From NCBI GenBank assembly GCA_029267635.1, contig JAJUIK010000004.1, forward strand, positions 62,001 through 126,000: a stretch of DNA of 64,000 nucleotides. The letters run 5' to 3'. Both the position numbers and the translations under genes were made by a program. The stretch is from Moraxellaceae bacterium. GTDB taxonomy: Bacteria > Pseudomonadota > Gammaproteobacteria > Pseudomonadales > Moraxellaceae. The notes under the pieces were generated by a model. The model made no database searches. It had not been told where the DNA came from and saw nothing but the letters and a program-made list of their open reading frames with translations. Shown here piece by piece: positions 36,985 to 43,856 of this stretch (the first letter of the stretch is position 1; each line of letters opens with the position of its first letter).

Positions 36985-38196
36985 TTATTCAAGGAAACGC
37001 ACGGTCACACCGGAGCGGACTTTACGGCCCAGGTCATTGGCATCCCAGTTGGTCAGGCGGATACAGCCATGTGACGCTGTTTTAGAAATGGTCGATGGGC
37101 TTGGCGTGCCATGAATACCAAAGGATTTTTTACTCAAACCAATCCAGATGTTGCCCACTGGTGCATTCGGGCCCGGTGGCAGTGATAGTGGTTTGAGGTT
37201 ATTCCCCTGAATAAAGTTACTTGGTGAGTAGCTGTACCATGGATTTCTCGCTACCCCCGTCACTTTGTAGGTCCCGGTTGGCGATGGCGTGTCGGTACTG
37301 CCAATGGTGGCAGGGAATGAGCCGACCATCTGGTTTTTGTTGTTGAACAGATAAAGCTGTTTCGCGCCTTTATGTGCCACGATCAGATGAATGTCTTCCG
37401 GTAAATCATTACGGACGTTAGTGACAATGATTTTTTCACCAACTTTACTAAAGCTGGCTTTAGGATTAAGTTTCTTCAAGAAATCTTCATCCATGTGGAA
37501 TTTTTCACCCAACATTTCCGTGACACGAGTGTAATACAGGCCTTTCATTTTGGCTTGCAAAGCATAGTCGGACGGAATGGAAGGGGCATACGGACCTTTG
37601 AGGTCGTCTGCAGTAATGGTGTATTCTACAAAAGCCGGACGGGTCTGTTTCGCAACCAGCGCATCCCAAGTTTCTTTGGTGAGTTCGCCTGTTGGTTTGA
37701 GGCCATTCATTTGCTGGAAAGAGGCAATCGCTTTCAGGGTGTTTTTACCGCTGGTCCCATCAATGGCACCTGGAGAGGCATGCTCGTTATTCAGCATCAC
37801 GTGGGCACGCGCATAAACCGGAAATTGACCTTTGCCAATATTTTCATACCAGTCTGCCGTGTTGAGACTGTTGAGATCCCAGCTCACCTGTAATGGTGCG
37901 GTAGCGCTTTTAGCGGGTGCTGTGCCAATGTCGGCATTTTGATCTTCGCTCTGGGTCAGATTTTGCAGGGTGTCTGACGCTTGTTTTAAATCGCGCTGTT
38001 CTTGTGGGGTCACCAGCGTTTCTGTGGTATTGGTTGGGGTATTTGGAGGTTCAACCGCTAATGGATTAATTGGATCCTCGACTGCATCAGCAGAGATCAC
38101 TTGCGGCTTTAAGGGTTGCTCAGCAGTAGATGCGGCAAAGGCAGTGCCTGCAAGGATGCAGCTTAAACTCATGGCGAGTAATGAGCGAACGAACAT
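36985..38196 (-). CDS. Exported L,D-transpeptidase (YkuD) with peptidoglycan-binding domain
   Basis: The enzyme forms 3-3 crosslinks in peptidoglycan or attaches amino acids or proteins to it. ATG at 38196 gives 403 residues starting with a signal peptide (FVRSLLAMSLSCILAGTAFA). A Pro/Thr-rich linker is followed by a peptidoglycan-binding domain (AIDGTSGKNTLKAIASFQQ, LTKETWDAL). The YkuD domain runs to the end, with the catalytic histidine in IHGTPSPSTI and cysteine in SHGCIRLTN. The longer frame would place extra residues before the signal peptide. It is monocistronic. Which Acinetobacter Ldt it corresponds to is not decided. Confidence 0.92.
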   Translation of the reverse strand: MFVRSLLAMSLSCILAGTAFAASTAEQPLKPQVISADAVEDPINPLAVEPPNTPTNTTETLVTPQEQRDLKQASDTLQNLTQSEDQNADIGTAPAKSATAPLQVSWDLNSLNTADWYENIGKGQFPVYARAHVMLNNEHASPGAIDGTSGKNTLKAIASFQQMNGLKPTGELTKETWDALVAKQTRPAFVEYTITADDLKGPYAPSIPSDYALQAKMKGLYYTRVTEMLGEKFHMDEDFLKKLNPKASFSKVGEKIIVTNVRNDLPEDIHLIVAHKGAKQLYLFNNKNQMVGSFPATIGSTDTPSPTGTYKVTGVARNPWYSYSPSNFIQGNNLKPLSLPPGPNAPVGNIWIGLSKKSFGIHGTPSPSTISKTASHGCIRLTNWDANDLGRKVRSGVTVRFLE

Positions 38197-38399
38197 GTAA
38201 TTCAACCTTGAGAATTCTTCATATGTATGTAAAAAACTAGCCAAGTATTGCAGAAAAAATACGGAGATGCAGTAGTTGTTTTGTGTAAATATCACTTTTG
38301 TTTTTATCTAAAATGATTTTTTACGATGCCAAGAAATTATTAAATTTTCAGCCTTTTTGTTATGATGCTGACAAATCAAAAATGACCTCGAGAAAGTAA

Positions 38400-40437: not shown

Positions 40438-40908
40438 ATGTTGAAAAAAATTTTGTTAGCGACCGTACTTGCAACGGGTTCAAGCATGGCGATGGCAGAT
40501 CGGGATGTCGGTTGTGGTATTGGTTCTGAGGTATGGGCTGGTCAGCGTGGTCTGTTACCAAAACTTTTGGCAGGTACGACCAACCATATTTTCTTTAACC
40601 AACTGTTTGGTATTACTTTCGGTACACTAGGATGTAGTCAAGGTGGAACGGTAACGGCTCAAGTCGTGACCTTTACCAATGAAAATGCCGAGTCATTGGC
40701 ACGTGATATGGCAGTGGGTCAAGGTGAAAGTCTCAATGTACTGGCCGAATTGATGCGCATCAAGGCTGAAGACAAAGCACGTTTCTTTGCTCTTTCAAAA
40801 GAAAACTTTACAACGATCTATTCAGCTGAAAATCAAAACTCCTTACAGGTACTGGCTTCTTTGCAAGCGGTGATGGCACAGGATGATATTCTGAAAGCGT
40901 ACGTATAA
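40438..40908 (+). CDS. Exported DUF3015 family protein
   Basis: The 156-residue precursor has a clear signal peptide (MLKKILLATVLATGSSMAMA, cleavage after AMA). The mature part starts DRDVGCGIGSEVW and contains TFGTLGCSQGGTV, so two conserved cysteines may form a disulfide. The rest is helical. It matches DUF3015, a periplasmic family of unknown function often found beside the DUF4105/Lnb-domain gene, as here. GGAG precedes the ATG. A terminator follows, but the Lnb-domain gene starts only 88 bp later. Confidence 0.88.
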   Translation: MLKKILLATVLATGSSMAMADRDVGCGIGSEVWAGQRGLLPKLLAGTTNHIFFNQLFGITFGTLGCSQGGTVTAQVVTFTNENAESLARDMAVGQGESLNVLAELMRIKAEDKARFFALSKENFTTIYSAENQNSLQVLASLQAVMAQDDILKAYV

Positions 40909-40921
40909 GCCTACGAGTAAT

Positions 40922-40950
40922 AAAACCCTGTCGCCATGACAGGGTTTTGT
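40922..40950 (+). terminator. Terminator after the DUF3015 gene
   Basis: An 11-bp perfect stem AAAACCCTGTC/GACAGGGTTTT. The T-run is short, so read-through to the next gene is possible. Confidence 0.7.
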
Positions 40951-40996
40951 TCTGTCAGTCCTATAAAAAATATCCAATAAGAGAATCCTTAGCGCT

Positions 40997-42883
40997 ATGA
41001 TAGCCATCGTTGCACTGTTGACCTTAATGCTATCCGGAATGGCTTATGCCACTGCATCTGATCAAGTACAGATCCAGCATTATCAACATCTGGCAGAGCA
41101 ATACCAGTTGGATCAGCAGATCACTTGGCAACGTCTCATGTATGTAGATGAAAAAGGGAAGAGTGAGATCAGTTATGCGGGTTATTTTCTGGCAGCAGAA
41201 GGTCGGCACAATTTAAAACAAGAAATGCAGGCTGATATTGCGGCATTATTTTCAGCGGCTGAGCCGGATCAATCGATTCGCTGTAAATTTCCAGCACGCA
41301 GCCGCTGGTTGATGCAACAACTGCAGATTTCTGAACAGCAACTGCCAGTTGTGCAGTGCCCGCAATTGGCAGACTGGATCGGACAGATCAAACCCTATAA
41401 AGCCACGCTGATTTATGCCACGGACTTTATGGGCAATCCGAGTTCGATGTTCGGCCATACCTTGCTACGACTTGATCCAAAAGATCAAAAACAGTTGAAC
41501 CTGGTGTCGTATGCCGTCAATTATGCGGCAACGGTTCATAATCAGGATAATTGGGCCTACGCCTGGAAGGGTTTGACCGGGCAATATCCAGGTGAGTATT
41601 CCTTAATGCCGTATTACCGCAAGGTCAAGGAATATGGCGATTTCGAAAGCCGGGATCTATGGGAATATGAGCTGAATTTAAGTTCAGATGAAACGCGTTT
41701 TCTGGTCGAACATATCTGGGAAATGCAGCAGGTCAGTTTTCCTTATTACTTTGTCAGTGATAACTGTGCTTACCGTTTGCTAGGTCTGATTGATCTGGTC
41801 CGTCCCGAAGCCAATCTGCAGCAGCAATTCAAACATGCTTCGATTCCGATGCAAACCTTGAAAGCCATGCAGCAACAAGGACTGGTCAAAGACACGGTGT
41901 ATCGTCCCGCTTTGGAAACGCAATTGTTGTCTCAAGCCAGACAGCATGGCCATCATCTAGCTCAGGTTGCGCATAAAGTTGCCTTTGCCCAACAATCGGA
42001 GATGGCTTCATTGTTGGCTGAATATGCAGTGGATGAGCAGGCAAAAATTCTGGAAATGGCCTACGATGATTTGTATTTGCAGTTTGTTGCACGTCAGGTC
42101 GAAACCGCTTTTGCGCAGCCGCGCTTACGTCAATTGCTGAGTTTACGTAGCCAGTTAGCCATTGAACGGCAACGACAGGAGCCCCAGCGTCCCGCCAAAG
42201 ATCCAACCCAAGGGCATGATGCGCGGATGCTGAGCTTGAATACTGGGACAGTACAAGGGGATAGCTTTTTTGAATTGGGACAGCGTCAGGCCTACCATGA
42301 TCTACTCGACCCACAGGCCGGTTATCGTTTTGGGACACAACTATTATTTTTACAGGGCAATCTGCAAGTGCGCAAAGATGCTCTCAAACTGGAACAATTC
42401 GATCTGTTATCCGTGAATGCCTATAACCCGGTACAGCCATTTAAAACACCGCTCAGTTGGGGCTTTAACTTTAGCTGGCAGCAGGAAGCAGTACAAGCTG
42501 GGCAGTTTAGTGAACATGAACAACATGGCGTTGTTAGTGTGCAGACTCAATTGGGTTACAGCTGGGCCGATTATGCGCGGCAGCATCTCTGCTATGCACA
42601 ATTACAAAGTTATGTTCAGGCTGGCAAAAACCTAGAGCGCGGCTGGCGTTTCGGCATGGGACCGACGCTGGGCTGTATGAACCAGTGGTCACCGCACTGG
42701 AATAGTTTAGTGCAAGTGGAACTGCCGTATTGGGAAGATCAGCAGCAGTGGAATCTCAGACTGAATACACAACTGCAATACAGTCTGAATGCAAATCATG
42801 CACTGCGCCTGAATGGGCAATTTGAACAGCAACAGGGCAAAGAGTGGAGCAAAGTTGGTTTAGGTTATGCGAGGTTTTTCTAG
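40997..42883 (+). CDS. Lnb-like (DUF4105) periplasmic domain fused to a C-terminal beta-rich domain
   Basis: The 628-residue protein has an N-terminal export signal (about residues 1-20). The central Lnb N-terminal periplasmic domain (formerly DUF4105) is recognised by ATDFMGNPSSMFGHTLLRLD and NYAATVHNQDNWAYAWKGL. His154 (in MFGHTLL) and Cys257 (in SDNCAYRLL) are the likely catalytic pair of a permuted papain-like fold. Residues about 420-628 are rich in alternating hydrophobic strands and end in ARFF, suggesting an outer membrane beta-barrel. Lnb itself N-acylates lipoproteins in Bdellovibrio; whether this protein does so is unknown. It follows the DUF3015 gene. Confidence 0.82.
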   Translation: MIAIVALLTLMLSGMAYATASDQVQIQHYQHLAEQYQLDQQITWQRLMYVDEKGKSEISYAGYFLAAEGRHNLKQEMQADIAALFSAAEPDQSIRCKFPARSRWLMQQLQISEQQLPVVQCPQLADWIGQIKPYKATLIYATDFMGNPSSMFGHTLLRLDPKDQKQLNLVSYAVNYAATVHNQDNWAYAWKGLTGQYPGEYSLMPYYRKVKEYGDFESRDLWEYELNLSSDETRFLVEHIWEMQQVSFPYYFVSDNCAYRLLGLIDLVRPEANLQQQFKHASIPMQTLKAMQQQGLVKDTVYRPALETQLLSQARQHGHHLAQVAHKVAFAQQSEMASLLAEYAVDEQAKILEMAYDDLYLQFVARQVETAFAQPRLRQLLSLRSQLAIERQRQEPQRPAKDPTQGHDARMLSLNTGTVQGDSFFELGQRQAYHDLLDPQAGYRFGTQLLFLQGNLQVRKDALKLEQFDLLSVNAYNPVQPFKTPLSWGFNFSWQQEAVQAGQFSEHEQHGVVSVQTQLGYSWADYARQHLCYAQLQSYVQAGKNLERGWRFGMGPTLGCMNQWSPHWNSLVQVELPYWEDQQQWNLRLNTQLQYSLNANHALRLNGQFEQQQGKEWSKVGLGYARFF

Positions 42884-42926: not shown

Positions 42927-43286
42927 CTATGCTTCCACTACCACATAATATTTTTTAACGGCTTCCACCACTTCAAAGGTGCCGACAAAGCCAGGGGGAA
43001 TTACACCTGCATCACCTGCCGTGATCTCAACAAAGGTCTGGGTTGCGCGGTCATGCAGACGTACCACACCTTCGATCACCTGGAAAAATTCCTGTTTATT
43101 GTCGGCGAACTGGATATTCCAAGAACCGACTTCACATTTCCAGATGCCACAGTTCATATGGGGATTTTCATACAAACTAAAGGTCAGGCGTTGCGGATTG
43201 CCTTTAACCAGACGATCGGGACGTGGATAGTCTACAGAAACGTCACTTTGGGTTAAACCTTGACCTGCTAACCAGATGGATGACAT
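42927..43286 (-). CDS. Cupin-domain protein (cupin_3/DUF861)
   Basis: The 119-residue soluble protein is a single small beta-barrel. The features GIWKCEVGSWNIQF, EFFQVIEGVVRLHD and AGDAGVIPPGFVGTFEV match the DUF861 cupin group, related to ureidoglycine aminohydrolase. The usual HxH metal ligands of classic cupins are not evident, as is common in this group. No reaction can be assigned. It starts 15 bp after folE on the same strand, so the two are co-transcribed; a link to pterin chemistry is conjecture. Confidence 0.82.
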   Translation of the reverse strand: MSSIWLAGQGLTQSDVSVDYPRPDRLVKGNPQRLTFSLYENPHMNCGIWKCEVGSWNIQFADNKQEFFQVIEGVVRLHDRATQTFVEITAGDAGVIPPGFVGTFEVVEAVKKYYVVVEA

Positions 43287-43301: not shown

Positions 43302-43856
43302 TTAATAACTTTCTGGAACGGCACTCAAGAATTCACGACGGGCATCTTTGTCTGTTTTGAAATCACCGAGGAATGATACCGTACGTGTGGTTGAATTCTG
43401 TTTGCCGACACCACGCATCATCATGCACATGTGTGCAGAGTCAATCACGACCGCTGCACCACGTGCACCGGTAACCTCTACCACGGCTTCAGCGATTTGC
43501 TGGGTCAGGTTTTCCTGAATTTGCAAACGACGTGCAAACATTTCGGTAATGCGGGCAAATTTGGACAGACCCAAAACTTGACCTTCTGGTAAATAAGCGA
43601 TGTGCACACGTCCATAGAAGGGCAGTAAATGGTGTTCACAAAGCGAATAGAATTCGATGTTCTTGACCAGTACCATTTCCCGGTTATCCGAAGGGAACAC
43701 CGCATTGTTGGTCACTTCTTCAAGAGATTGGTTATACCCGGAAGTCAGATAGGAAAACGCTTTTGCAGCACGCACAGGGGTATCTTTGAGGCCAGGACGA
43801 TTGAGATCCTCACCAACGGCGGTCAGAATATTTGCGTAGGATTGCTGCATAGACAT
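43302..43856 (-). CDS. folE: GTP cyclohydrolase I
   Basis: FolE converts GTP to dihydroneopterin triphosphate, the first folate step. The 184-residue length fits the type IA enzyme. The zinc ligand cysteine and histidine are in [13 protein letters not shown], followed by [16 protein letters not shown] and the second zinc cysteine region [10 protein letters not shown]. Two in-frame ATGs (43856 and 43850) are possible starts, and neither has a clear Shine-Dalgarno. It is followed closely by the cupin gene. Confidence 0.95.

Follow-up and report, generated by a model that had tools for sequence, protein, structure and literature searches.

The window studied here is a stretch of 64,000 nucleotides from a Moraxellaceae bacterium (GenBank assembly GCA_029267635.1, contig JAJUIK010000004.1, positions 62,001 to 126,000 of the forward strand), which forms part of contig 16 in a genome of 2.45 Mb and 99.99% completeness. 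Our subject is a pair of genes that encode a small DUF3015 protein and a 628-residue putative enzyme having an Lnb_N domain, each family being represented by a single copy in this genome. The DUF3015 gene (40438 to 40908, plus strand) encodes 156 residues, begins with a signal peptide recognized by eye, and matches PF11220 over residues 18-155 with a score of 135.2 bits versus a cut-off of 25. A terminator-like hairpin of 14 pairs (40919 to 40951, plus strand; RNA fold z = -4.68) separates it from the enzyme gene (40997 to 42883, plus strand); a simple terminator scan missed this hairpin, which was found by RNA folding. The enzyme is conveniently divided into a signal peptide followed by four Pfam regions, all scoring above their cut-offs: DUF7843 (residues 37-108), Lnb_N (125-293), DUF7842 (300-396) and DUF7840 (401-627). 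Lnb_N (PF13387, formerly DUF4105) contains H154, N256 and C257 and scored 182.7 bits versus a cut-off of 22.2, and DUF7840 scored 224.5 bits. Hence, the initial annotation, which read this DNA as a small exported protein followed by a 628-residue Lnb-domain protein, had both reading frames and both families right. When the two proteins were searched with phmmer against the sequences of the PDB the only matches were at E values of 0.56 or above. The signal peptide of the enzyme as called (window 40997-41060, MIAIVALLTLML...) has no positive charge ahead of its hydrophobic stretch; the relative L101 starts MKLITF.

The association of the two genes was followed in a class sample of 229 genomes, a phylum sample of 299 genomes that partly overlaps it, and a named set made up of the best 80 of 583 confirmed relatives, which are hence those most similar to the query. 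In the class sample DUF3015 was found in 43 genomes and DUF7840 in 50, and all 43 DUF3015 genomes had DUF7840 (hypergeometric p ~1.4e-39). In 39 of the 43 the DUF7840 match started within 3.5 kb downstream of DUF3015 on the same strand. The phylum sample gave the same picture with Lnb_N as the partner: DUF3015 was found in 30 genomes and Lnb_N in 64, all 30 DUF3015 genomes contained an Lnb_N gene, and in 27 of these the Lnb_N gene was found no more than 3.5 kb downstream. DUF3015 directly preceded the enzyme gene, in the same orientation, at 76 of the 80 named loci. These 80 include Acinetobacter (29 loci), Pseudomonas, Halopseudomonas, Vibrio, Marinobacter, Zoogloea, Aquabacterium, Geotalea and a Desulfuromonas metagenome-assembled genome; the last two are among those with DUF3015 in this position. 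The initial annotation had proposed that the two proteins are partners and had made this depend on co-occurrence outside the genus. The surveys strongly support the partnership, which extends far beyond Acinetobacter.

The exceptions are few. In two class genomes (G121 and G089) the pair was on one contig and strand with the order reversed and a hydrolase gene in between, in a third (G212) an Lnb_N-type gene adjoined DUF3015 with the DUF7840 match on a different contig, and in a fourth (G171) the DUF3015 and DUF7840 genes were apart. The phylum exceptions are a reversed pair (G241), a pair with the genes far apart (G408) and one genome (G279) in which DUF3015 is accompanied only by a distant paralogue of Lnb_N. 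As both genes are kept despite reversal (G089, G121, G241) or separation (G171, G408), the association points to function rather than to inherited gene order. Three of the four exceptions among the named loci (L109, L116 and L129) begin within ~410 bases of a contig end. The L109 genome has at a contig end a DUF3015 piece (31 bits, 41 positions) that fits the missing upstream part, the L129 genome has a similarly fitting contig-end piece of 22 bits (below the cut-off) plus a 144-bit partial match on another contig, and the L116 genome has a full DUF3015 on another contig. The fourth genome, that of L144, has a divergent DUF3015 (57 bits) elsewhere. The converse dependence fails: 34 of the 64 Lnb_N genomes of the phylum sample lack DUF3015, as do seven class genomes with DUF7840 (G033, G034, G047, G067, G092, G139 and G200).

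Additional DUF3015 matches distant from the pair were found in G121, G137 and G038 and, below the cut-off, in G203. Three extra or orphan copies lying away from any Lnb_N match (G279:C1:931488, G283:C1:5079657 and G364:C23:84265) come from one genus of the same order; those of G283 and G364 are second copies. An apparent DUF3015 fusion in G064 was dropped, as the 836-residue frame runs from stop to stop and overlaps a large upstream gene in another frame; the DUF3015 inside it has a start and a signal peptide of its own. Members of family f2 (e.g., G275, G478, G162 and G514) have a long Lnb_N protein (~665 residues, 91-97 bits) and no DUF3015, and in six others of that family (G283, G348, G364, G408, G454 and G502) a similar ~665-residue protein is found besides a higher-scoring Lnb_N gene.

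Eight residues of the enzyme, C96, C121, H154, Y213, R219, E223, N256 and C257, were invariant in all 80 named loci. The putative catalytic histidine thus precedes the catalytic cysteine, both being invariant, as in the permuted NlpC/P60 superfamily. The catalytic domain (41333 to 41896, plus strand; residues 113-300) was modelled in isolation with 52 sequences, which gave a predicted local distance difference test score (pLDDT) of 82.3 and a predicted template modelling score (pTM) of 0.78. Comparison of this model with solved structures by VIA-align 2 put TseH (6v98) first (Z 10.8, root-mean-square deviation 3.7, 141 aligned residues), followed by a Bacillus protein titled cysteine peptidase (3kw0, Z 8.1), which we take to be a YiiX-like protein, Aichivirus 2A (Z 6.7) and human TIG3 (Z 5.6). 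H154 and C257 both fall inside the stretch that matches permuted NlpC/P60 structures, which bears indirectly on the condition set by the initial annotation that these two residues not lie far apart. In the predicted model His154 (model residue 42) lies just ahead of a strand and Cys257 (model residue 145) opens a helix; this order of histidine and cysteine is the one expected in the permuted group. Hence, the fold predicted for the Lnb_N domain of the 628-residue protein is that of permuted NlpC/P60 proteins. Among relatives having this fold, which cleave or transfer acyl chains, Tox-Act1 is described as a phospholipase and DUF4105/Lnb as an N-acyltransferase (PMC12994826). PMC10318531 places DUF4105 among papain-like folds and guesses, from genomic contexts, that it acts in resistance transporters or in translocation. 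One DUF7840-type protein (L059/L148, G033:C100), from a genome without a DUF3015 match, has Gln in place of the histidine and Gly in place of the cysteine and is likely a pseudoenzyme; the dyad is likewise not seen in a short frame of G034 (L149) that covers a fragment of DUF7840.

The DUF7840 region (42197 to 42880, plus strand; residues 401-628) is predicted to form an outer membrane beta-barrel. The barrel was modelled not in the window protein but in a relative, L101 of Acinetobacter sp. A47 (~70% identical), in which the adjoining DUF3015 and enzyme genes were joined by reading through the intergenic stops. This model, made with 80 rows, folded both proteins (pLDDT 88.0, pTM 0.85) and showed twelve strands at model residues 572-789. 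The best matches of these strands in VIA-align 2 were barrels of solved outer membrane proteins, EstA (Z 15.1), Tsx (14.2), KdgM (13.7), NanC (13.6), LpxR (11.6) and OmpLA (11.1), and the barrels of the autotransporters NalP, AIDA-I and EspP also matched. An aromatic last residue is typical of outer membrane barrels; of the 80 named loci, 75 end in F, Y or W, and the window protein ends in F. The DUF7840 score, the twelve strands, the barrel matches and the aromatic end all argue for the outer membrane barrel that had been suggested for the C-terminus from the letters of the sequence.

The DUF3015 protein has two conserved cysteines, C26 (48 of 48 aligned rows) and C66 (48 of 49), which flank a Gly-rich segment. 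C26, G27 and G29, all near the mature N-terminus, were invariant in 48 of 48 rows each, and by eye the protein has no lipobox. Its helical part (~55-135 of the L101 model) was mostly modelled with confidence. A stem of at least 9 bp within 60 bases of the DUF3015 stop was present in 62 of the 76 named loci (28 of 29 from Acinetobacter and 34 of 47 from others), versus 2.7 expected from dinucleotide shuffles and none of 76 in a stretch inside the gene, and 53 of the 62 stem-bearing loci had a T-rich end. The hairpin, which the initial annotation passed over, looks like a terminator. Partial read-through would perhaps result in more DUF3015 protein than enzyme; alternatively, the enzyme gene could have its own promoter.

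In other species a third gene, which the initial annotation could not have seen, often joins the pair. In 18 of the 51 non-Acinetobacter named loci the next gene encodes a lipoprotein-like alpha/beta-hydrolase of 277-322 residues on the same strand, which starts between -34 and +9 bases relative to the end of the enzyme gene; the count covers immediately following genes only, and four of the 51 loci show no downstream gene. Alignment of 17 copies (L128, which is close to L143, was omitted) gave an invariant cysteine at the lipobox position (C22) in lipobox-like contexts, followed in all 17 by S, T or A, together with invariant S148, D230 and H259. All 17 matched Hydrolase_4 and Abhydrolase_1. 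In these other species the family, the Ser/Asp/His residues and the lipobox-position cysteine of a lipoprotein alpha/beta-hydrolase are thus all in place, with lipidation predicted. The BipL phospholipase model and other NCBIfam models matched at low scores, the first member being far below all cut-offs. In the class sample, where scoring took in no more than ten candidates from each genome, there were 24 hydrolase matches of at least 239 bits, the next best being 203. Of these 24, 22 lay beside the pair, 20 by the enzyme gene and two (G009 and G137) divergent by DUF3015; another (G210) was elsewhere in its genome and the last (G204) was in a genome without the pair. Hence, 22 of the 43 DUF3015 genomes have the hydrolase beside the pair.

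As the initial annotation had expected for Acinetobacter, the window genome encodes a full-length Lnt (315.6 bits versus a cut-off of 132.9). At E <= 1e-30, Lnt was matched in 210 of the 229 class genomes and in 42 of the 43 DUF3015 genomes, the exception being G163. Thus, the module is not an Lnt replacement, the idea that it replaces Lnt in general was dropped, and Lnb-like N-acylation of lipoproteins is not needed in these genomes. Lnb is found where Lnt is missing, which is not the situation here, and the NCBIfam Lnb equivalog (NF051878) matched the 628-residue protein at only 27.6 bits over model positions 44-152 of 394, versus a cut-off of 550. One genome, G047, encodes an Lnb_N plus DUF7840 protein and has neither a DUF3015 nor an Lnt match. 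In two genomes of family f13 (G012 and G165, both 100% complete) there are three Lnb_N genes each, one of 389-401 residues plus longer ones, and no DUF3015, DUF7840 or Lnt match (Lnt at E 1e-30); natural displacement of Lnt by an Lnb-type protein in one family of the class is possible.

The initial annotation had left acylation, deacylation and amidase reactions side by side. Because of the fold neighbours of the enzyme and the company it keeps, we favour acyl-lipid chemistry: the 628-residue protein would be a cysteine-dependent phospholipase or acyltransferase held in the outer membrane, with DUF3015 as its obligate partner or substrate and the hydrolase handling the product. We give this reading a probability of about one half. 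We infer its outer membrane place, periplasmic face, lipid substrate, cysteine thioester, interface, and DUF3015 and hydrolase roles, which would combine as follows. The 12-strand barrel would sit in the outer membrane with the permuted NlpC/P60 (Lnb-like) domain pointing to the periplasm, where Cys257, with His154 as base, would attack the acyl ester of a phospholipid to form a thioester. The acyl group would then be handed to water (a phospholipase A reaction) or to an acceptor (an acyltransferase reaction). DUF3015, a small and probably disulfide-bonded periplasmic protein made from the same locus, perhaps in excess owing to the hairpin, would be the obligate partner, acting as activator, lipid presenter or acceptor. 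Where encoded beside the pair, the lipoprotein serine hydrolase would probably remove the product, a lysophospholipid or an acyl ester.

Several observations weigh against this proposal. Foldseek also put TseH at the top for the isolated domain with an E value of only 0.04, and no notable alignment came from hhalign against a single YiiX sequence of E. coli. Large parts of the first 60 residues of the mature DUF3015 protein were poorly modelled, residues 1-7 and 30-53 of the L101 model having pLDDT below 50 despite several strongly conserved positions. The barrel form also occurs in two genomes without an Lnt match, G163 (which has DUF3015) and G047 (which has none). The hydrolase was not found in the window genome (best score 40.8 bits), and about half of the pair genomes in the class sample do not have it next to the pair, so that the system can do without this third gene. 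PMC12994826 further reports that TseH showed no activity in a mass spectrometry assay and, by fluorescence, was active at pH 8.9 only; Tox-Act1 was inactive in the fluorescence assay. Having the permuted fold is hence no guarantee that a given assay will show lipid activity.

DUF3015 might itself be the substrate, the enzyme moving an acyl chain from a phospholipid onto it in a new kind of outer membrane lipidation and the hydrolase trimming a by-product or reversing the modification. The invariant C26, G27 and G29 near the mature N-terminus would suit a modified protein, the stem could yield many DUF3015 molecules per enzyme, and in neither sample was there a DUF3015 genome lacking an Lnb_N or DUF7840 gene (G279 having the distant paralogue only). 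However, the conserved cysteine pair fits a disulfide equally well, the lack of a lipobox removes an acceptor of the Lnb type, no candidate acceptor residue was identified, and a regulator or chaperone predicts identical genomics. We consider this alternative unlikely, if worth keeping in mind. Its fullest form, in which a barrel-anchored cysteine acyltransferase takes acyl groups from outer membrane phospholipids and acylates the more abundant DUF3015 while the hydrolase clears the lysophospholipid, is rather unlikely; if true, it would be a widespread system of outer membrane protein lipidation or phospholipid remodelling, the outer membrane parallel to the Lnt/Lnb reaction, having a dedicated protein as substrate.

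Peptidase, amidase or transglutaminase action on DUF3015, peptidoglycan or another periplasmic protein seems improbable. The fold is part of the broader papain/NlpC/P60 group (PMC10318531 and PMC12994826) and 3kw0 bears its peptidase title, but the nearest fold neighbours are permuted and tested members act on acyl groups (PMC12994826). Moreover, a barrel and a lipoprotein serine hydrolase suit lipids better as partners. That EstA is the top barrel match, with autotransporter barrels matching too, brings up an autotransporter-like protein with its enzyme domain crossing the barrel to the cell surface, as in EstA. Cysteine pairs are unusual in autotransporter passengers, and the enzyme part has the invariant pair C96 and C121. 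Given also that the non-autotransporter barrels Tsx, KdgM and NanC come close to EstA as matches (Z 14.2 to 13.4) and that the partners look periplasmic, we judge surface display to be quite improbable. Least of all do we expect a second lipoprotein N-acyltransferase redundant with Lnt, of the kind Lnb is in Bacteroides, which we regard as very improbable. The Lnb_N score, the weak partial equivalog match and the two barrel-form genomes without Lnt (G047 and pair genome G163) speak for it; Lnt in nearly every pair genome, the distance of the equivalog score from its cut-off, and a barrel that would place the protein in the outer membrane, after lipoprotein acylation, speak against it.

Outside the pair, the window has a DUF817 gene (profile match) and a hemE-like gene (by eye) 5' of DUF3015, and the next two genes 3' of the enzyme gene (42927-43286 and 43302-43856) are both on the opposite strand. 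A few genes from the module, and with no sign of belonging to it, is an exported-looking protein (36985-38295, minus strand) that seems to have, close to the C-terminus, a YkuD-type L,D-transpeptidase motif. A lipid-metabolism neighbourhood extending beyond the third gene was considered and dropped, as flanking genes vary by genus in the loci inspected. An 812-residue Pseudomonas neighbour was likewise dropped as a PlsB, its start resembling an ATPase-type protease (by reading, with no search run).

A search of the open-access literature, with subscription papers outside its scope, found no paper on the DUF3015-DUF7840 pair or its function. Related labels turned up as a single DUF3015 gene in a Leptospira expression table (PMC13066512), as PF11220 in a fungal glucosidase table (PMC11609419) and as COG3015, there used for NlpE (PMC3759607). 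Two domains of unknown function together make up a conserved unit, which is present in Acinetobacter, Pseudomonas, Vibrio, Marinobacter, Zoogloea, Geotalea and others and is often joined by a third, lipid-hydrolase-like gene. If the lipid reading is true, these bacteria have an added enzyme system for lipid homeostasis of the outer membrane, a medically relevant permeability barrier, and DUF3015 and DUF7840 gain a testable function. Until tested, the long barrel form should not be given the database name Lnb.

The module shares parts with several known systems and coincides with none of those compared. With Lnb of Bacteroides (DUF4105, PF13387, NF051878) the 628-residue protein has the Lnb_N domain in common, but it differs in its predicted DUF7840 barrel end, in the added DUF7843 and DUF7842 regions, in its usual coexistence with Lnt and in having DUF3015 alongside. 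TseH, Tox-Act1, the YiiX-like proteins and LRAT/TIG3 resemble it in predicted fold (TseH, 3kw0 and TIG3) and in the order of histidine and cysteine; these lack a barrel and are either effectors or small enzymes, whereas here the domain is fused to a predicted barrel and tied to a DUF3015 gene. OmpLA (PldA) and LpxR have a barrel fold similar to that of L101, and acyl-ester chemistry is the proposed common theme. The active sites of OmpLA and LpxR sit on the barrel itself, whereas in the 628-residue protein a separate cysteine enzyme domain would carry the active site. EstA, a surface serine esterase of the GDSL type, has the same arrangement of an N-terminal acyl-ester enzyme domain and a C-terminal barrel as is proposed here, from which the 628-residue protein departs in being a putative cysteine enzyme with an invariant cysteine pair that is probably periplasmic.

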